The notes beneath the pieces were generated by a model, which ran no database searches, was not told the DNA's origin, and worked only from the letters and a program-made list of their open reading frames with translations. Shown here piece by piece: positions 54,789-62,645 of a stretch of DNA of 64,000 nucleotides. The translations under genes were made by a program, and so were the position numbers. Positions within the stretch are counted from its first letter, which is position 1; each line of letters starts with the position of its first letter. The DNA lies in the NCBI RefSeq assembly GCF_029392675.1, contig NZ_CP113941.1, forward strand, positions 1,655,001 to 1,719,000, written 5' to 3'. Origin of the DNA: Lactobacillus sp. ESL0684. Its GTDB lineage: Bacteria > Bacillota > Bacilli > Lactobacillales > Lactobacillaceae.

Positions 54789-55499
54789 CTATCCACCAAA
54801 ATACACTTGTTGGACTTCAGGATTAGCTAACAGCTCTGTTCCCGTCCCAGTTAATTGAACTTGTCCAGTAGCCAAGACATAACCACGATCAGCGATAGAG
54901 AGTGCTTGTTTAGCATTTTGCTCAATTAGCAAAATGGTTGTCCCTCTTTGATTTAATTCCTTAATAATAGTGAAGATTTCTTGAATAAATAGAGGAGATA
55001 AACCCATTGACGGTTCATCAAGCAGCAGTAACTTAGGTTGCGCCATGAGTGCCCGTCCCATTGCTAACATTTGTTGCTCACCACCAGATAAGGTGGCAGC
55101 ATCTTGATGTTGCCGCTGCTTTAAAATCGGAAATCGTTCAAAGATTTCATTATAGCTCTGACTAACATCGTCATGACTGCTTCGCAAGAAAGCACCCATT
55201 TGCAAGTTTTCCAAGACAGTCATCCCAGCAAAAATGTGACGCCCTTCTGCGACCTGAGAGATACCTGCTGACACAATTTGTGGAGCAGTCTTTTTTTGCA
55301 TTGCCTGACCTTGATAGACAATTTGACCAGACTTAGGCTTTAGCAAACCCGAAATCGTCTTAACGATGGTCGATTTACCAGCACCATTGGCGCCAATTAA
55401 TGTAACGATTTCGCCTTCATTAATCTTAAAGCTAACACCTTTAACGGCTTGAATCACACCATAATTAACCGCAAGATCATTTACTTCTAACATCGCCAT
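54789..55499 (-). CDS. livF: Branched-chain amino acid ABC transporter ATPase LivF
   Basis: The second ATPase of the Liv importer: Walker A LIGANGAGKST, signature TLSGGEQQMLAMGRALM, Walker B LLLLDEPSMGLSP and the LivF-specific LLIEQN. 236 residues. It overlaps livG by one base and is the last gene of livJHMGF. Confidence 0.94.
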   Translation of the reverse strand: MAMLEVNDLAVNYGVIQAVKGVSFKINEGEIVTLIGANGAGKSTIVKTISGLLKPKSGQIVYQGQAMQKKTAPQIVSAGISQVAEGRHIFAGMTVLENLQMGAFLRSSHDDVSQSYNEIFERFPILKQRQHQDAATLSGGEQQMLAMGRALMAQPKLLLLDEPSMGLSPLFIQEIFTIIKELNQRGTTILLIEQNAKQALSIADRGYVLATGQVQLTGTGTELLANPEVQQVYFGG

Positions 55500-56278
55500 T
55501 AATCGTCACCTTCTCCCAAGTATGCCTTAATTACTGCAGGATCATTTTTGACTACATCAGGCGATCCACTTACCAAGATTTGCCCTTGATCTAGCACATA
55601 AATGCGCTGCGCCAAATTCATAACTAGCGACATATCATGTTCAATTAGCACAACAGTAATTTTGAATTGTTTCTGCACTTCTTTAATTAAATTAGTTAAA
55701 TCTGCTGTCTCCTCTGGATTCATCCCTGCCGCTGGCTCATCTAAGAACAAAATTTTCGGTTGCGTGGCTAAAGCACGGACAATTTCTAATCGCCGCTGCG
55801 TACCATAAGGCAAATTCTTTGCTAGCGTCTGTTCATCTTTAGTCAAATCAAATAACGCCAATAATTTTTGTGCAGCAACTTTCATCTCATGTTCTGTTTG
55901 ATAAAACTTAGGCAACCGCAAAATTGACGTCAAAAAGCCTTCGTGATACTTGTTGGTCATTGCCGTCAAGACATTGTCCATGACCGTCAAATCTTTGAAT
56001 AAGCGAATATTTTGAAAAGTTCGCGACAATCCTAAATCTGCAATCTGAGTCGCATTCTTTTTGGTTAAATCATACTTTTGATCACTAGATAACGTAATTT
56101 GACCGCTAGAAACAGGAATCATCCCAGTTAGTAAGTTAAACAGCGTAGTCTTACCAGCTCCATTGGGACCAATTAATGCAATCAATTCAGACTGGTCAAG
56201 GTGCATTGACACATCGTTAACGGCAATTAAACCACCGAATTTTCGCACGACATGGTCAACTTGTAGTAAGTGACTCAT
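55499..56278 (-). CDS. livG: Branched-chain amino acid ABC transporter ATPase LivG
   Basis: First ATPase of the importer: Walker A LIGPNGAGKTT, the LivG hallmark SRTFQNIRLF, signature LPYGTQRRLEIVRALA (a degenerate LSGGQ typical of LivG), Walker B ILFLDEPAAGMNP and LIEHDM. 259 residues, spaced three bases from livM. Confidence 0.94.
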   Translation of the reverse strand: MSHLLQVDHVVRKFGGLIAVNDVSMHLDQSELIALIGPNGAGKTTLFNLLTGMIPVSSGQITLSSDQKYDLTKKNATQIADLGLSRTFQNIRLFKDLTVMDNVLTAMTNKYHEGFLTSILRLPKFYQTEHEMKVAAQKLLALFDLTKDEQTLAKNLPYGTQRRLEIVRALATQPKILFLDEPAAGMNPEETADLTNLIKEVQKQFKITVVLIEHDMSLVMNLAQRIYVLDQGQILVSGSPDVVKNDPAVIKAYLGEGDD

Positions 56279-56281
56279 TCT

Positions 56282-57238
56282 TTAGCCCCTTTCTTTTCTA
56301 ACAAAACGTTGCCGCAAGTTCTTTAATGAAAGTTCCCAGTTTCCTAACAAGCCTGATGGCTTGAAAATCATAATCAAGATTAAGACAATTGCATAGATCA
56401 CCATTCTTAGTGCACCAAAGTTCTGCAAAACAGTATCTAAGACGCCCAGAACTGTGGCTGCTAAAAAGGTCCCGGTCATGCTGCCGACTCCACCTAAAAC
56501 TACAATTACTAAAATAGAAATTGATTCCATAATTCCAAAATCACCCGGTGCAATTGTCTGTAAATAAGAAGCATGCAAACTACCAGCAATCGCTGCAGTT
56601 GCTGCACCAATCATAAAGGCCGCTAACTTCCACTTAGTAGTGTTAATACCCATTGCTTCTGCTGCAATCTCATCTTCACGAACAGCCTTAATTGCGCGAC
56701 CACCACGTGAATTAATGAAATTCATAAGAATAATCGTAGTTACACAAACCAGCACGTAGACCGTTGGCCATGAACATAATTGTGGAATATTAAACATCCC
56801 ACTTGAACCACCTGTAATTTTCAGATTGTTAATCACATTACGAATAATTTCAGCAGCGCCTAGAGTGGCGATTGCTAAGTAGTCGCCTTTTAAGCGTAAA
56901 AAAGTAGCCGTTCCAATAATTGCCGCAACAATCATAGCAATAATAATTCCGATTAATACTGAAACAATGAAGCCCATTTCCGTACTAACATATTGAGTAA
57001 TAATTGCCGTAGCATAGGCACCAAGTGCCATAAAACCAGCATGTCCTAAAGAAAACTGTCCACTAAAGCCAATAATTAGGTTAAGTCCAGTTGCCAAAAT
57101 AATATTGATACCAATTGTAACCAGCATATTCTCAATAAACGCATCAATTACTCCAACCATAATTAATAAATCGATCAAGACAAAACCGACGGCCATAATT
57201 AGCAACCACGATAAGATATATTTCCAATTCTTTTTCAT
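56282..57238 (-). CDS. livM: Branched-chain amino acid ABC transporter permease LivM
   Basis: Membrane component of 318 residues with about nine helices. Family blocks include GLNLIIGFSGQFSLGHAGFMALGAY, the cytoplasmic EAA-like RAIKAVREDEIAAEAMGINTTKWKL and VVLGGVGSMTGTFLAA. It works with LivH as a heterodimer. Confidence 0.94.
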   Translation of the reverse strand: MKKNWKYILSWLLIMAVGFVLIDLLIMVGVIDAFIENMLVTIGINIILATGLNLIIGFSGQFSLGHAGFMALGAYATAIITQYVSTEMGFIVSVLIGIIIAMIVAAIIGTATFLRLKGDYLAIATLGAAEIIRNVINNLKITGGSSGMFNIPQLCSWPTVYVLVCVTTIILMNFINSRGGRAIKAVREDEIAAEAMGINTTKWKLAAFMIGAATAAIAGSLHASYLQTIAPGDFGIMESISILVIVVLGGVGSMTGTFLAATVLGVLDTVLQNFGALRMVIYAIVLILIMIFKPSGLLGNWELSLKNLRQRFVRKERG

Positions 57239-57246
57239 GTTGCCAC

Positions 57247-58125
57247 CTAAACCTTTTCCTTAGCATTCTTGCCAAAAATACCAGCTGGTAAAAAGAGCAA
57301 AATCACGATTAATACCAGATAAACCACTGCATCTTTATAAGCTGAAAGTCCGATAGATTGGAAGAACGTCTCCAAAATTCCGATTAGGAATCCACCAATT
57401 GAGGCTCCAGGCACAGACCCAATTCCGCCTAAAACCGCAGCGACAAATGCTTTAATCCCAGGCGTCATCCCCATTAATGGATCAATTGAATTATAATACA
57501 TGCCGATCAAAATTCCAGCGGCACCAGCTAAGGCCGAACCCAATGCAAAGGTAAAGGAAATCGTGTGATTAACGTTAACCCCAACTAATTCTGCAGCTTC
57601 TTGATCAACTGAGACAGCCCGCATCGCACGACCCATTTTAGTTTTTTGAATAATCAACTGTAATAAAACCATGAGGATTACGGCAGTTACCAAAATCAAA
57701 ATTTGAATATTGGAAATTAACACCCCAAAAACATTGTAATTAACTTGTTCAATCACCTGTGGAAAGCTACGGGCATTAGAGCCGACTATATAAGACATCC
57801 CATTTTCGAGTAAAAACGATACACCAATCGCGGTGATTAACACGGCAATCCGTGGAGATTTGCGCAGAGGCTTGTAAGCAAAATGCTCAATTAAAACTCC
57901 AGCGATAGCTCCAACAATCATTGCAGAAAGCAGTGCTGTAATAAAATTAAAATGCCATAAACTAATCACATAATATGCGCAAAAGGCGCCAAGCATATAA
58001 ACATCACCATGAGCAAAATTAATTAAGTTAATAATGCTATAGACCATACTATAGCCTAACGCTAACAAAGCATAAATTGATCCTAGTGATAATGCATTAA
58101 TGACTTGTTGAAAAACTGTTTGCAA
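57247..58125 (-). CDS. livH: Branched-chain amino acid ABC transporter permease LivH
   Basis: 292-residue partner permease with the N-terminal INALSLGSIYALLALGYSMVYSIINLINFAHGDVYMLGAF block, the coupling stretch GRAMRAVSVDQEAAELVGVN and VAAVLGGIGSVPGASIGG. The start follows GAAAGGGCG. It lies between livJ and livM. Confidence 0.94.
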   Translation of the reverse strand: MQTVFQQVINALSLGSIYALLALGYSMVYSIINLINFAHGDVYMLGAFCAYYVISLWHFNFITALLSAMIVGAIAGVLIEHFAYKPLRKSPRIAVLITAIGVSFLLENGMSYIVGSNARSFPQVIEQVNYNVFGVLISNIQILILVTAVILMVLLQLIIQKTKMGRAMRAVSVDQEAAELVGVNVNHTISFTFALGSALAGAAGILIGMYYNSIDPLMGMTPGIKAFVAAVLGGIGSVPGASIGGFLIGILETFFQSIGLSAYKDAVVYLVLIVILLFLPAGIFGKNAKEKV

Positions 58126-58163: not shown

Positions 58164-59357
58164 TTATTTAATATTATAGTATTTATTCACTTTACCATTG
58201 GTCATTTGTTCAATTGCAATCGGCTTTTCTGGGTCATGAGAGTTGTTAACTGTAATCTTACCAGTAACACCATCAAAGTCCTTAATGTGCTTTAATCCTG
58301 TGGCAACCTTAACTGAATCATCCGATTTTTGATCTTCGATTGCTTGTTTAATCATATAAACTGAATCATAAGCTAAGGCTGAAAAGGTTGGAGCTTGTTC
58401 GTTGTAACGCTTTTTATATGCATTCATAAACTTAACTGCGGTTGGATTCTTTTCTGCTACTTTAATTGAGAATGGTGTGGTGTAATAAATGCTGCTGGCA
58501 TTTTTAGCACCAGCTATTTCAGCTAATTTTGGATCAGCCATACCGTCACTACCAATAATTGGTGCTTTAATACCATTTTGACGAGCTTGCTTAATAATTA
58601 ACCCAACTTCCGTGTAATAGCCAGGTACATAAATTGCATCAACCTTTTTTGATTTAAATGAAGTTAGAACCGCGTTAAAGTCCTTGTCACCTTCAGAATA
58701 CGTTTGGCTATCAGCAATCTTACCCTTGAATTCTTTCTTAAAAGCTTTAGCTAATCCTGTACCGTAATCACTGGAATTATCTGCAAAAACTGCAACGTTT
58801 TTAGCCTTTAAAGTATCTTCAGCAAATTTCGCTGCTATTTGACCTTGGAAGTTATTCTGATAACATGCCCGAAAAACATAAGGCTGAACTTTGCCATTCT
58901 TCTGTTTAGTATAATCTGGATCCGTTGCTGATGGACTAACGCTTGGGACAGCGGCTTTAGTAATATTAGGAATTTCAGCAGTACCAGCATTAGTTGTAGC
59001 TGGCCCAACAATCGCTGCTACCTTATCCTTGTTTACTAGCTGTGCCGCAACAGAAGCAGAAGTTGAGATCGCGGTTTTATTGTCACGAACGATTAATTTA
59101 ATCTTTTTCTTCTTGCCATTAACGTTAATTCCACCTGATTTATTAATCTCAGAGGCAGCTAATTGAATTCCTTGCTTTTGCGCATTTCCATAACCAGCCG
59201 CGCCACCAGACAGCTCCATGTTGACTCCAATTTTAACGGTTTTATCATCCTGATGAGTACCTTTGCTGCTATTCTTATTAGTACTACATGCAGTCATCAT
59301 CAGAGCTGCAGCAGTAACAACTGCCGCACTCATCACTTTTTTAGTTAGCTTCTTCAC
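58164..59357 (-). CDS. livJ: Branched-chain amino acid-binding lipoprotein LivJ
   Basis: Lipoprotein receptor of the importer. The start is GTG 59357 (reading KKLTKKVM) after AAAGGGG; a longer frame is rejected. The lipobox LMMTACST gives the lipid-modified cysteine near residue 25. The type I binding fold shows VKIGVNMELSGGAAGYGNAQKQGIQLAA, AIVGPATTNA and APTFSALAYDSVYMI. It is the first structural gene after the leader and terminator at 59405-59610. Confidence 0.93.
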   Translation of the reverse strand: MKKLTKKVMSAAVVTAAALMMTACSTNKNSSKGTHQDDKTVKIGVNMELSGGAAGYGNAQKQGIQLAASEINKSGGINVNGKKKKIKLIVRDNKTAISTSASVAAQLVNKDKVAAIVGPATTNAGTAEIPNITKAAVPSVSPSATDPDYTKQKNGKVQPYVFRACYQNNFQGQIAAKFAEDTLKAKNVAVFADNSSDYGTGLAKAFKKEFKGKIADSQTYSEGDKDFNAVLTSFKSKKVDAIYVPGYYTEVGLIIKQARQNGIKAPIIGSDGMADPKLAEIAGAKNASSIYYTTPFSIKVAEKNPTAVKFMNAYKKRYNEQAPTFSALAYDSVYMIKQAIEDQKSDDSVKVATGLKHIKDFDGVTGKITVNNSHDPEKPIAIEQMTNGKVNKYYNIK

Positions 59358-59404: not shown

Positions 59405-59437
59405 AAAAAACCTCATCCAACTTAATGAATGAGGTTT
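59405..59437 (-). terminator. Attenuator terminator ahead of livJ
   Basis: On the minus strand AAACCTCAT and ATGAGGTTTTTT form a terminator 50 bases before livJ. Its 5' arm overlaps TCATTAAG, which can instead pair with CTTAATGA at about 59466-59473, so two exclusive structures exist. Confidence 0.8.
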
Positions 59438-59439
59438 AA

Positions 59440-59520
59440 TTTGTCACTTAGTTAAGCCCCAATCATTAAGACGCAAACAAGGGCTTAACTAGTAAAATTA
59501 CTGAAGAGTAATTACTTAAG
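59440..59520 (-). promoter_or_regulatory. Structured attenuator region of the liv operon
   Basis: Between leader peptide and terminator, AGTTAAGCCC pairs with GGGCTTAACT (10 bp), with CTTAATGA exposed in its loop. A smaller hairpin AGTAATTAC/GTAATTTTACT lies nearer the peptide stop. This is the usual chain of alternative hairpins in leader-peptide attenuation. Confidence 0.65.
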
Positions 59521-59610
59521 TCAAGTCCTCCATTGCAACAACAAGGCTAGCAAGTTTTGAGTATTAGCTATCATAATGTTTACTGATTTATTAAAATAAT
59601 TAGTTTTCAT
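59521..59610 (-). CDS. Leucine-rich leader peptide of the liv operon, 29 aa
   Basis: ATG 59610 after a perfect GGAGG opens a peptide that contains SVNIMIANTQ and then NLLALLLQWRT just before the stop, with five leucines in six positions. Such a run placed before a terminator is the hallmark of attenuation by the cognate charged tRNA. When leucyl-tRNA is scarce the stalled ribosome would favour the antiterminator and liv expression. Confidence 0.8.
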   Translation of the reverse strand: MKTNYFNKSVNIMIANTQNLLALLLQWRT

Positions 59611-59645
59611 TAAAATATCCTCCTCAAAACTATTTAATATTTAAG

Positions 59646-59674
59646 ATTATAACTAGATAGTTTTAGTCTGTCAA
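59646..59674 (-). promoter_or_regulatory. Promoter of the liv operon
   Basis: Fully consensus on the minus strand: TTGACA (59674-59669), 17 bases, TATAAT (59651-59646). The leader peptide starts about 30 bases downstream of the expected transcript start. Confidence 0.9.
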
Positions 59675-59860: not shown

Positions 59861-61294
59861 ATGAGACTTTGGTCAAAGATCACACGTAAAGAAGATCCCA
59901 AAATGTATCAAAGTAAAGATCAACATTTAAAACGAGTTTTAACTACTAAGGACTTCTTAGCATTAGGAATTGGGACCATTGTTTCAACTGCTATTTTTAC
60001 ATTGCCTGGCGTTGTAGCAGCAAAATATGCTGGTCCTTCAGTTGCACTATCATTCTTAGCTGCCGCAGTTGTAGCAGCCTTAGTCGCCTTCGCTTATGCT
60101 GAAATGTCCTCTACTATGCCATTTGCAGGCTCTGCATATTCATGGGTTAATGTTGTTTTAGGAGAGGGCTTTGGCTGGATTGCTGGTTGGGCACTACTTG
60201 CAGAATACTTTATTGCCCTGGCCTTTGTTGGTTCTGGTTTATCGGCTAATTTACGTGGCTTAATTTCACCGTTAGGAATTACTTTACCTAAGCAATTGGC
60301 TAACACTTTAGGTACAAATGGTGGCTGGTTTGATTTAATTGCTGTCGTCGCAATTTTAATTGTTGCTTTTCTGTTATCCAAAGGGGCTTCAACCGCAGCA
60401 AGAGTCGAAGATATTTTGGTCGTGCTGAAAGTTATTGCAGTCTTAACATTCATCATCGTTGGCGCTACTGCAATTCATCCTGAAAATTACGTACCATTCA
60501 TTCCCCAACATCATCTCAATCCTGATGGCACATCGTTTGGTGGCTGGCAAGGAATTTATGCAGGTGTTTCATCGATTTTTTTAGCATACATTGGGTTTGA
60601 TTCAATTGCTTCTAATGCAGCTGAAGCCAAGAATCCTTCTAAAACCATGCCACGAGGTATTTTAGGCTCACTAATCATTGGCGTAATCTTATTTGTTGCA
60701 GTTTCACTAGTTTTAGTCGGAATGTTTAAATATAGCAATTATGCAGGAAACGCAGAACCAGTCGGTTGGGCTTTAAGACATGCTGGCCACCCAATTATTG
60801 CTTCTGTTGTCCAAGCAGTAGCAGTTGTCGGAATGTTTACCGCGTTAATTGGAATGATGATGGCAGGATCACGTTTGCTTTATTCTTTTGGTCGTGATGG
60901 ATTACTTCCCAATTGGTTAGGTACATTAAGCAAAGATAACCTGCCTAACAATGCATTAGCTTTTTTAACATTAATTAGCGTTTTAATCGGAGCTGTCTTA
61001 CCATTCACGACTCTATCACAATTAATTTCAGCCGGAACACTGATTGCATTTATGTTTGTCTCATTAAGTATTTATAAATTACGGCCACGTGAAGGTAAAG
61101 ATTTGCCACAACCAGGATTTAAAATGCCTTGGTATCCAATCATGCCGGCCCTAGCATTTCTTGGTACCCTAGTCGTCTTCTTGGGCCTAGATAAAGAGGC
61201 AAAGATCTATTCAGTTGTTTGGTTCTTAATTGGAATCATTATTTACTTTGCTTACGGTATGAATCATTCAACTTTAGGAAAACAAAAAAAGTAG
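59861..61294 (+). CDS. Amino acid permease, APC family
   Basis: A 477-residue transporter with about twelve helices. The N-terminal LGIGTIVSTAIFTLPGVVAAKYAGP unwound-helix block, the later YIGFDSIASNAAEAKNP and SRLLYSFGRDGLLP place it near YfnA/cationic amino acid permeases. AGGAGG precedes the ATG. The epimerase gene follows by 16 bases, so the permease may bring in the branched-chain substrate or export the D-allo product; this is inference. Confidence 0.9.
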   Translation: MRLWSKITRKEDPKMYQSKDQHLKRVLTTKDFLALGIGTIVSTAIFTLPGVVAAKYAGPSVALSFLAAAVVAALVAFAYAEMSSTMPFAGSAYSWVNVVLGEGFGWIAGWALLAEYFIALAFVGSGLSANLRGLISPLGITLPKQLANTLGTNGGWFDLIAVVAILIVAFLLSKGASTAARVEDILVVLKVIAVLTFIIVGATAIHPENYVPFIPQHHLNPDGTSFGGWQGIYAGVSSIFLAYIGFDSIASNAAEAKNPSKTMPRGILGSLIIGVILFVAVSLVLVGMFKYSNYAGNAEPVGWALRHAGHPIIASVVQAVAVVGMFTALIGMMMAGSRLLYSFGRDGLLPNWLGTLSKDNLPNNALAFLTLISVLIGAVLPFTTLSQLISAGTLIAFMFVSLSIYKLRPREGKDLPQPGFKMPWYPIMPALAFLGTLVVFLGLDKEAKIYSVVWFLIGIIIYFAYGMNHSTLGKQKK

Positions 61295-61310
61295 AAAGGA
61301 AGCATTAATT

Positions 61311-62645
61311 ATGAGTGAAAATCAAAAATTACTAGCTAGTGAAAATCAGCATTTATCTAAACAGAGAATCCAATATTATAACATTGCTATTGAATCTGGC
61401 CATGGTGCAATCATTACGGATGCTGATGGCAATGATTATATTGACCTATTAGCAAGCGCTTCATCAACTAACACTGGTCATGCACATCCGCACATTGCTA
61501 AAGCAATTGCTGATCAAGCCAGTAAGTTAATCCAATACACTCCGGCTTATTTCGCAAATATTCCTTCAATTAAGCTAACCGAAAGACTCTGTAACTTAGC
61601 ACCTATGTCTGGTGCTGTTAAATTATCATGGGGTAATTCTGGCTCAGATGCTAACGATGCTATCATTAAATTTGCGCGTGGATATACGGGAAGACAGTAT
61701 GTTGTCAGTTATACTGGAGCCTATCATGGTTCAACATATGGCTCAATGAGTGTCTCAAGTTGCAGTCTTAATATGGCACGGAAAATGGGACCAATGTTAC
61801 CAGGTGTAGTAAAAGTGCCTTATCCCGATGCCTGGAGCAGACTAGCCGATGAGTCTGAAGATGATTTTGTAGATCGTATGTTTGCAGCTTTTAAATTACC
61901 ATTTGAAACTTATCTACCAGCTGAAGAAACCGCAGTAATCTTAATTGAACCTATTCAAGGCGATGGTGGTATTACTAAAGCACCACAAAAATACATGGAA
62001 AAAGTCTATAACTTTGCTCATGAACACGGGATTCTATTTGCCGTAGACGAGATTAATCAAGGAATGGGACGAACAGGTAAATGGTGGTCAATCCAGCACT
62101 TTGGAATTGAGCCTGATCTAATGAGTGTTGGTAAATCTATTGCTTCTGGCTTGCCACTAAGTGCCGTAATTGGTAAAGCAGAAATTATGGATAGCTTGGA
62201 TTCGCCAGCCAATGTTTACACAACTGCTGGAAATCCAGTTACAACTGCAGCTTCGTTAGCTACAATTGACGTAATCGAAGACGAACATTTAGTAGAGCGC
62301 TCAGCAAAGCTAGGGAAAGTTGCAGCTGATTTCTTCACTAAAGAACAAGCTAAATATCCATTTATTGGTGATTTTAGAATGTATGGTCTAAATGGTGGTA
62401 TTGACATCGTTGATCCAAATACTAAAGAACCCGATAAAGCCGCAACTACCAAATTAATTTACCGAATGTTTGAACTTGGAGTAATTATTATTAGCTTAAA
62501 AGGAAACGTACTACGTTTCCAACCACCACTAGTTATTACAGATAAACAGCTGCAACAAGCGTTCAAGATCATGGATCAAGCATTTAGCGAGCTCCAAGCT
62601 GGTAATTTAAAATTACCAGAAAACGCTGAAGAGATTGGTTGGTAG
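61311..62645 (+). CDS. PLP-dependent class III aminotransferase-fold enzyme, probable isoleucine 2-epimerase
   Basis: 444 residues of the class III aminotransferase fold. Lysine K275 in MSVGKSIASG should bind PLP, with D246 in VDEINQGMGR as its partner, and GNSGSDANDAIIKF forms the phosphate site. The sequence resembles, from memory, isoleucine 2-epimerase of Lentilactobacillus buchneri across its whole length, including the start region YYNIAIESGHGAIITDADGNDYIDLLASAS and the IGW end. It would interconvert L-isoleucine and D-allo-isoleucine and may also racemise leucine and valine. It may otherwise be a related aminotransferase. Confidence 0.82.
   Translation: MSENQKLLASENQHLSKQRIQYYNIAIESGHGAIITDADGNDYIDLLASASSTNTGHAHPHIAKAIADQASKLIQYTPAYFANIPSIKLTERLCNLAPMSGAVKLSWGNSGSDANDAIIKFARGYTGRQYVVSYTGAYHGSTYGSMSVSSCSLNMARKMGPMLPGVVKVPYPDAWSRLADESEDDFVDRMFAAFKLPFETYLPAEETAVILIEPIQGDGGITKAPQKYMEKVYNFAHEHGILFAVDEINQGMGRTGKWWSIQHFGIEPDLMSVGKSIASGLPLSAVIGKAEIMDSLDSPANVYTTAGNPVTTAASLATIDVIEDEHLVERSAKLGKVAADFFTKEQAKYPFIGDFRMYGLNGGIDIVDPNTKEPDKAATTKLIYRMFELGVIIISLKGNVLRFQPPLVITDKQLQQAFKIMDQAFSELQAGNLKLPENAEEIGW

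Follow-up and report, generated by a model that had tools for sequence, protein, structure and literature searches.

A conserved leucine-codon leader with alternating hairpins, probably a leucine-sensing attenuator, upstream of livJ and other amino-acid and peptide genes in Lactobacillaceae

The DNA upstream of a putative BCAA importer operon in Lactobacillus sp. ESL0684 carries, with a probability of roughly 0.88, a ribosome-mediated transcription attenuator that senses the charging of tRNA-Leu ahead of livJHMGF. The element lies on the minus strand of the window, the 64,000-nucleotide stretch (positions 1,655,001 to 1,719,000 of contig NZ_CP113941.1) that was analysed and to which all coordinates below refer. 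A leucine-rich peptide and a series of competing hairpins very probably act there as a leucine gauge for amino-acid and peptide importers. The observations behind this reading are computed ones: the anatomy of the leader, its conservation, coupled changes in four helices, a BCAA codon run beside the first pairing segment (A), the genes that follow and a structural flip with ribosome position. The element is real and conserved, and is wider than a first, sequence-only reading of this DNA had claimed.

The leader is preceded by a sigma-70-type promoter, TTGACA-17-TATAAT (59646..59674), which matches the consensus at 12 of 12 positions; the sequence-only reading had recognized it, together with a 29-codon leucine-rich peptide with GGAGG, a 10-bp hairpin formed by AGTTAAGCCC and GGGCTTAACT, and a terminator (59437–59408, followed by T6), all of which are present. 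Promoters of this quality (12/12) are found upstream in 15 of the set of 83 leaders introduced below, against 0 of 415 shuffled sequences. Neither promoter-like sites (6; 6.6 expected) nor terminator-like sites (1; 1.6 expected) exceed chance numbers in the region, so the case rests on conservation. The leader open reading frame (ORF; 59521..59610, 29 codons) encodes MKTNYFNKSVNIMIANTQNLLALLLQWRT*, ending in …NLLALLLQWRT. It stands behind the Shine-Dalgarno sequence GAGGAGG (59619..59625), which was read directly from the DNA and is preserved as a GGAGG-like site across the genus alignment (judged by eye); the peptide is presumably translated in the cell. Its C-terminal end is conserved in the genus and its N-terminal half is variable, and across genera the end is conserved as a BCAA run. 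Codons 20–25, TTG CTA GCC TTG TTG TTG (Leu-Leu-Ala-Leu-Leu-Leu; 59536..59553), are the putative sensor. TTG accounts for 22% of the leucine codons in 46 mechanically called ORFs of the window, but for 65 of the 88 leucine codons that lie within the final 14 codons of 22 genus leaders. The choice of leucine codon in this run is lineage-specific, being mostly TTG in Lactobacillus, TTA in most rows from Lentilactobacillus and Secundilactobacillus, and CTA in those from Liquorilactobacillus.

Downstream, on the same strand, lies livJ (58164..59357, with a probable GTG start at 59357 behind AAGGGG), which encodes a BCAA-type substrate-binding protein with a Pfam Peripla_BP_6 match above the cut-off and, as its top NCBIfam match, a BCAA binding protein, below the cut-off for that family. 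The remaining genes (54789..58125, minus strand) have LivH, LivM, LivG and LivF as their top NCBIfam matches, all below cut-off. Judged from these matches, the operon looks like livJHMGF, in line with the earlier reading of a liv operon.

The 236-nt leader RNA has a predicted folding energy of -59.5 kcal/mol (z -3.88) and beats 199 of 200 shuffles. Modelling suggests a switch of five alternating segments, A to E, in which A:B and C:D would form for read-through, and B:C and D:E for termination. Segment A, AGGACTTGACTT (59518..59529), overlaps the leader codons R-T-stop and has B, AGTTAAGCCCT (59480..59490), as its partner; B can pair with either A or C. A small hairpin, AATTACT-CTTC-AGTAATT (59496..59513), is predicted to nest within A:B, and most of the genus alignment retains it in altered form (by eye). 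The 3' part of segment C, CTTAATGATTGGGGCTTAACT (59450..59470), pairs with B, and its 5' part with D, as an antiterminator. D, AAACCTCATTCATTAAG (59421..59437), comprises the 5' arm and loop of the terminator and has C or E as partner, and E, TGGATGAGGTTT plus the T-run (59405..59419), provides the 3' arm and U-tract. A full attenuation switch had been claimed earlier, and its parts are indeed there, but segment A, with its pairing to B, had been overlooked. The upstream pairing then described (CTTAATGA with TCATTAAG) exists, but it is longer than stated, joining CTTAATGATTGGGG (59470–59457) to CCTCATTCATTAAG (59434–59421) with one mismatch, and it makes up only half of the A:B plus C:D state. 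B is followed by a conserved stretch, TTGTTTGCG (59472..59480), which is found in most relatives and is replaced in Lactiplantibacillus. This stretch has no obvious common pairing partner among the relatives when these are inspected by eye, and it resembles an RNA polymerase pause sequence; the A:B stem ends about 12 nt upstream of it, near a conserved A.C mismatch. A pause of RNA polymerase after TTGTTTGC, at C59473, is a possible candidate, put forward as a guess.

In the proposed mechanism, a ribosome would translate the 29-codon peptide while RNA polymerase makes the leader. When leucine is short, the ribosome would stall on leucine codons 20–25 and leave free segment A, which starts 6 nt past the last leucine codon, so that A could pair with B; C, freed by A:B, would capture D as D emerges, D:E would come too late and livJHMGF would be transcribed. 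When leucine is sufficient, the ribosome would reach the stop codon and cover A, B:C would form, D would pair with E and transcription would stop before livJ. We infer both the dependence on leucine and this direction of control. In the his, trp and leu attenuators of Escherichia coli and Salmonella, the position of the ribosome on a codon run likewise chooses between alternating hairpins, but a ribosome stalled there covers the first segment, and transcription terminates when translation is lost. The multi-segment his leader of these bacteria is the nearest to the liv element in layout. With five alternating segments, the logic of the liv element would be inverted with respect to these enterobacterial models: in the modelled switch, stalling frees the first segment, and the layout predicts that absence of translation gives read-through, which would separate the element from textbook attenuators.

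A second copy of the leader in the same genome (81% identical over 251 bases), encoding MKINNFNKQIKIRITTAQDLLALLLQRRT, precedes a protein with the oligopeptide-binding protein Opp4A as its top match. A DNA search of 75 Lactobacillus genomes gave a match in 34, several of these being short chance pieces. A covariance model, R1, trained on the 35 distinct sequences of the genus alignment, found 37 places in the genus at 69 bits or more, the training sequences themselves having come from these places. LivJ-like genes in the 75 genomes number 36 at E ≤ 1e-60; all 31 genes with at least 70% identity stand behind the element (these leaders also trained R1), and no element was found before the five distant ones (53–55% identity). 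The remaining six of the 37 R1 places precede oppA-type genes. Eight genomes of the genus have two livJ genes separated by about 4.9 kb, each preceded by a separate copy of the element; several of these genomes belong to bee-associated species. Four weak matches within the genus (L112–L115) were rejected as chance terminators, since none has a BCAA leader; a ribD-like gene follows three of them.

R1 starts at segment A and contains none of the BCAA codons. At each of its 28 best matches outside the genus, inspection by eye shows a leucine run in a short ORF that has a ribosome site (with endings such as …QDLALLLKMKDPT and …QNLVLLLKTKDAT), and the downstream gene, present in the locus for 27 of the 28, is LivJ-like by sequence in 27 of 27. 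A BCAA leader was also found at 13 of 16 weaker extra-genus matches, making 41 of 44 in total, and at 19 of 20 new matches of a second model, R2, which was built from 44 training rows from several genera (two rows reach into the leucine codons, and two pairs are the same record); the 16 weaker R1 matches and the 20 R2 matches were hand-picked from longer lists that contain chance matches. The interpretation survives the refutation test named in the sequence-only reading, that of leader codons lost where the terminator is kept.

With chance matches included, R1 has matches in 74 of 301 family genomes (E ≤ 0.01), and R2 in 109 of 397 genomes of the family and 45 of 295 of the order (E ≤ 5e-4). 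Members of the element were seen in 13 further genera of Lactobacillaceae (g3, g4, g5, g6, g9, g12, g14, g16, g21, g30, g31, g34 and g38). Four extra-genus matches without a BCAA leader (L124, L127, L130 and L238) were classed as non-members, and antisense matches of symmetric hairpins were dropped (two rows in the assembly of the 83-leader set, and the minus-strand rows of a scan of named genomes). Divergent from the liv operon, the window holds genes for an amino-acid permease resembling BcaP (with a score under the cut-off of that family) and for an aminotransferase, the matches of which include leucine/methionine racemase (59861–62645); R2 has no match at E ≤ 5e-4 before them. The scan of named genomes covered the best 80 of 104 livJ-like loci, with family assigned by genus name. 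Among these best 80, R1 matches at 38 bits or more at 43 of the 54 Lactobacillaceae loci (7 of the 43 being training loci), in Lactobacillus, Lentilactobacillus, Liquorilactobacillus, Secundilactobacillus, Lactiplantibacillus (including L. plantarum), Loigolactobacillus, Bombilactobacillus, Lacticaseibacillus and Pediococcus; none of the 26 Enterococcaceae loci among them matches R1, even at E ≤ 1. Of the 11 Lactobacillaceae loci missed, L155 has just 42 nt upstream, L187 and L188 give weak matches (30.1 and 23.2 bits), and L190, L193, L197, L199, L202 and L203 have no match at E ≤ 1. Other short upstream ORFs, with LVLLL, LIII or ALLL, are seen at L184, L186, L187 and L188 (Lacticaseibacillus zeae, L. 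chiayiensis and Ligilactobacillus ruminis), and these are possibly diverged versions of the switch.

The set of 83 leaders used here was assembled from loci that had already been inspected (L185 and L230 are the same locus), so the presence of a leader in 83 of 83 is not an unbiased rate; when the upstream DNA is shuffled, an automated codon test is passed by 0–8 of the 83 rows. Ribosome position was varied in silico on RNA transcribed as far as the start of E, with footprints of 13 and 16 nt. With a stall at Leu20 or Leu21, the window copy forms about 12 A:B and 12.6–12.8 C:D pairs, with B:C at 0.1 or below; with the ribosome at any position from codon 27 to the stop, it forms about 10 B:C pairs, with A:B at 0.2 or below and no C:D. 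Codons 22–26 are transitional and footprint-dependent, stalls at Leu23–25 giving mixed structures. Across the 83 leaders, stalling raises A:B in 62 and C:D in 53; with the ribosome at the stop codon, B:C outweighs A:B in 65. In these models, ribosome position flips the structure around the leucine run cleanly in the window copy and in only part of the relatives. Where the stop codon is over 20 nt beyond A, a ribosome terminating there may leave A uncovered. With no ribosome and before E is made, the window copy has 12.2 A:B and 12.9 C:D pairs; both helices also form in L164, and C:D is weak (3.3) in L125 and absent in L235. In the complete RNA, the terminator D:E wins at equilibrium in the four rows tested (4/4), whatever the ribosome does, so the switch must be kinetic, and C:D would have to be preferred kinetically over D:E.

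These calculations also bear on a control of opposite sign, in which a ribosome stalled on the leucine codons would mask A, so that B:C formed and transcription terminated in leucine shortage. Such a control draws on the transitional codons, since B:C is ahead of A:B for stalls at codons 22–25 with the 16-nt downstream footprint (and at codon 23 with that of 13 nt). We consider it very unlikely: A is entirely free when the ribosome stalls at Leu20 or Leu21, a ribosome at the stop codon masks A completely, and a system that switched off importers and leuA during starvation would make little physiological sense. The leuA leader L125, in which the stop codon precedes A, points the same way, as stalls on the first two leucine codons of its run keep A:B and a ribosome at the stop codon loses it.

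The longest BCAA run ends 4–7 nt before A (taken as the first NGGRY motif) in 79 of the 83 leaders, and 6–7 nt before it in 72, and the start of A ranges from -29 to +7 nt relative to the stop codon. This near-fixed distance, kept while the stop codon wanders, suggests that the selected feature is the position of the ribosome on the BCAA codons relative to A. The distance, held across genera, and the changes from leucine to isoleucine within the run also argue against a metabolite riboswitch or protein-binding leader in which the short ORF would be incidental, a reading that we regard as highly unlikely, although the conservation of TTGTTTGCG with no obvious pairing partner would fit it. Throughout the window, Rfam gives no match that attains its threshold, and known RNA families, the T-box included, were likewise all below threshold at 16 relative loci (L120 and L164 being the same record). 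A further point in favour of a riboswitch is the trpB motif (RF04312), which occurs in Lactobacillaceae and has a similar layout, with two hairpins, the second a terminator, and an antiterminator in the right shoulder of the first; its authors classed it as a strong candidate for a riboswitch and left classic attenuation possible (PMC11109978). The liv element differs from it in sequence and in the residue sensed, and was rejected as a member (25.2 bits, against a gathering score of 59). The trpB motif is itself accompanied by a tryptophan leader at the loci inspected. At all 12 of these Lactobacillaceae loci (L132–L143; five above the family cut-off and seven below), the ORF that precedes it is short, has a ribosome site and carries one or two tryptophan codons near its end (for instance …SWQSR and …NIWQSWRS), and at several of them the Ser-Arg codons AGCCGG can pair, by eye, with CCGGCT after the first hairpin. 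The presence of this leader at all 12 loci makes the trpB motif of Lactobacillaceae, to judge from its sequence, probably a tryptophan leader-peptide attenuator.

In the 35 aligned genus sequences, B:C and D:E together are 96.6% paired and have seven pairs with double changes, against a shuffled mean of 1.4 (0 of 500 shuffles reach seven), with the caveat that, in all such shuffle tests, related sequences can outdo shuffles without any structure. The terminator (59437–59408) with its U-tract covaries in these sequences. A:B and C:D together are 85.5% paired, a value equalled or exceeded by 11 of 500 shuffles; their covariation score and count of doubly changed cells lie above all 500 shuffles, but their doubly changed pairs are no more numerous than in shuffles (7, against a mean of 6.0; 158 of 500). 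C:D on its own is 90.9% paired and has compensatory changes at columns 113:159 (seven sequences, one lineage) and 114:158 (one sequence), loop positions that are paired in neither hairpin of the B:C plus D:E state. A:B is the weakest helix, with 79.2% of cells paired and an A.C mismatch in 31 of 35 rows. When the partners were permuted among the 83 leaders, 0 of 2000 re-pairings matched the duplex energies of the true partners for each of A:B, B:C, C:D and D:E, and a segment paired better with its own partner than with the mean of foreign ones in 47, 65, 74 and 82 of the 83 rows, respectively. The antiterminator C:D, which is mutually exclusive with the terminator, is thus backed both by compensatory changes and by the permutation test. 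That the leader is a plain terminator behind a small functional protein, with hairpins setting the ratio of leader RNA to livJ mRNA, is extremely unlikely: the ORF does have a strong ribosome site and conserved C-terminal residues, but its N-terminal half is variable, the codon run and segment A together account for its conserved end, and C:D, needless for a plain terminator, is conserved and fits its own partner.

Control of the liv operon, as originally claimed, describes only some of the targets, as livJ does stand behind the element, but oppA, leuA and ilvE genes are preceded by it too. The first downstream gene of the 83 leaders is LivJ-like in 65, LeuA in 10 and OppA in five, with one case each of IlvE, a PanS-like transporter and an SBP_bac_3 protein (assignments were checked on representatives, singletons being their own). 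Leaders before livJ, oppA and leuA mostly have leucine runs, with mixed runs (IIIALL, LVIILV, VLII) in some livJ and oppA leaders of the genus; those before leuA encode peptides that end directly in …ALLL-stop. In one other family of the order (f5), all four matches inspected have isoleucine-rich runs, such as MFSLSQNIIIIIKSRA before a LivJ-type gene and MQLLSQQNIIIIINNRT before ilvE, and in a third family (f8) the single match inspected has no leader. The architecture is thus constant, whereas the target and the putatively sensed codon vary. The module is possibly also present before a PanS/bile-acid-symporter-like gene (IIIVI run, L237) and a family 3 amino-acid binding protein gene (VILI run, L227). 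A broader reading, to which we give even odds, holds that the element is a reusable module of inverted logic shared by Lactobacillaceae and one or more other families of the order, moved between livJ, oppA, leuA and ilvE, recoded from leucine to isoleucine through the codon run 6–7 nt before A, and serving as a BCAA regulon in lactobacilli without CodY. These odds allow for the finding that, of the four leaders folded without a ribosome, L235 forms no C:D and L125 little.

Leader-peptide attenuation of BCAA genes has been described in other low-GC Gram-positive bacteria. The ilv-leu operon of Staphylococcus aureus has a leucine-rich attenuator with a short Leu/Ile leader peptide, and low leucine leads to read-through (PMC5794164). 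As far as the accessible part of that account goes, the two systems share a Firmicute BCAA leader peptide and a choice between terminator and antiterminator; that of S. aureus targets biosynthesis, is also subject to CodY and has an antiterminator that pairs with the U-tail of the terminator (PMC5794164), whereas the liv element precedes importers, in a genome with no CodY match, and has five alternating segments, the comparison being one of descriptions rather than of an alignment. BCAA leader-peptide attenuators are also reported for ilv in Listeria monocytogenes and predicted in Lactococcus lactis and Streptococcus (PMC5794164, PMC6123439); they resemble the liv element in kind of control, but differ from it, on description, in acting on biosynthetic genes, and the accessible sections of these papers mention no livJ or oppA target. 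A survey of T-boxes with an emphasis on transporters covers the BCAA symporters of lactobacilli, and the word livJ is absent from the portion available (PMC2494555). Naville and Gautheret described a histidine leader peptide in bacilli and, in the available part of their article, knew of no earlier regular leader peptide outside Proteobacteria and Actinobacteria (PMC2965389). The T-box also senses tRNA charging at amino-acid genes, but the sensor in the liv element would be a translating ribosome. Searches of the open-access literature brought up no description of the element, which agrees with the earlier statement that such control is rarely described in lactobacilli.

Lactobacilli are commonly amino-acid auxotrophs that live on imported amino acids and peptides. 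The host genome has no match to LeuA, and is therefore, on this sequence evidence, probably dependent on imported leucine; it also has no match to CodY. T-boxes (RF00230) give 20 matches in this genome, six of them above the cut-off, and none of the 20 lies at either copy of the element, so that the absence of T-box control here, as first supposed, is upheld by the scans of window and genome. With neither CodY nor LeuA matched and T-boxes located elsewhere, a leucine gauge on the importer side makes sense. The presence of the element in Lactiplantibacillus plantarum provides an easily testable model lactobacillus, and a codon run at a near-fixed distance from segment A offers a natural design for amino-acid sensors. 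If the attenuator reading is true, leucine charging would be linked directly to importers, including an oligopeptide-binding protein, and a single leucine signal could set the uptake of both amino acids and peptides.
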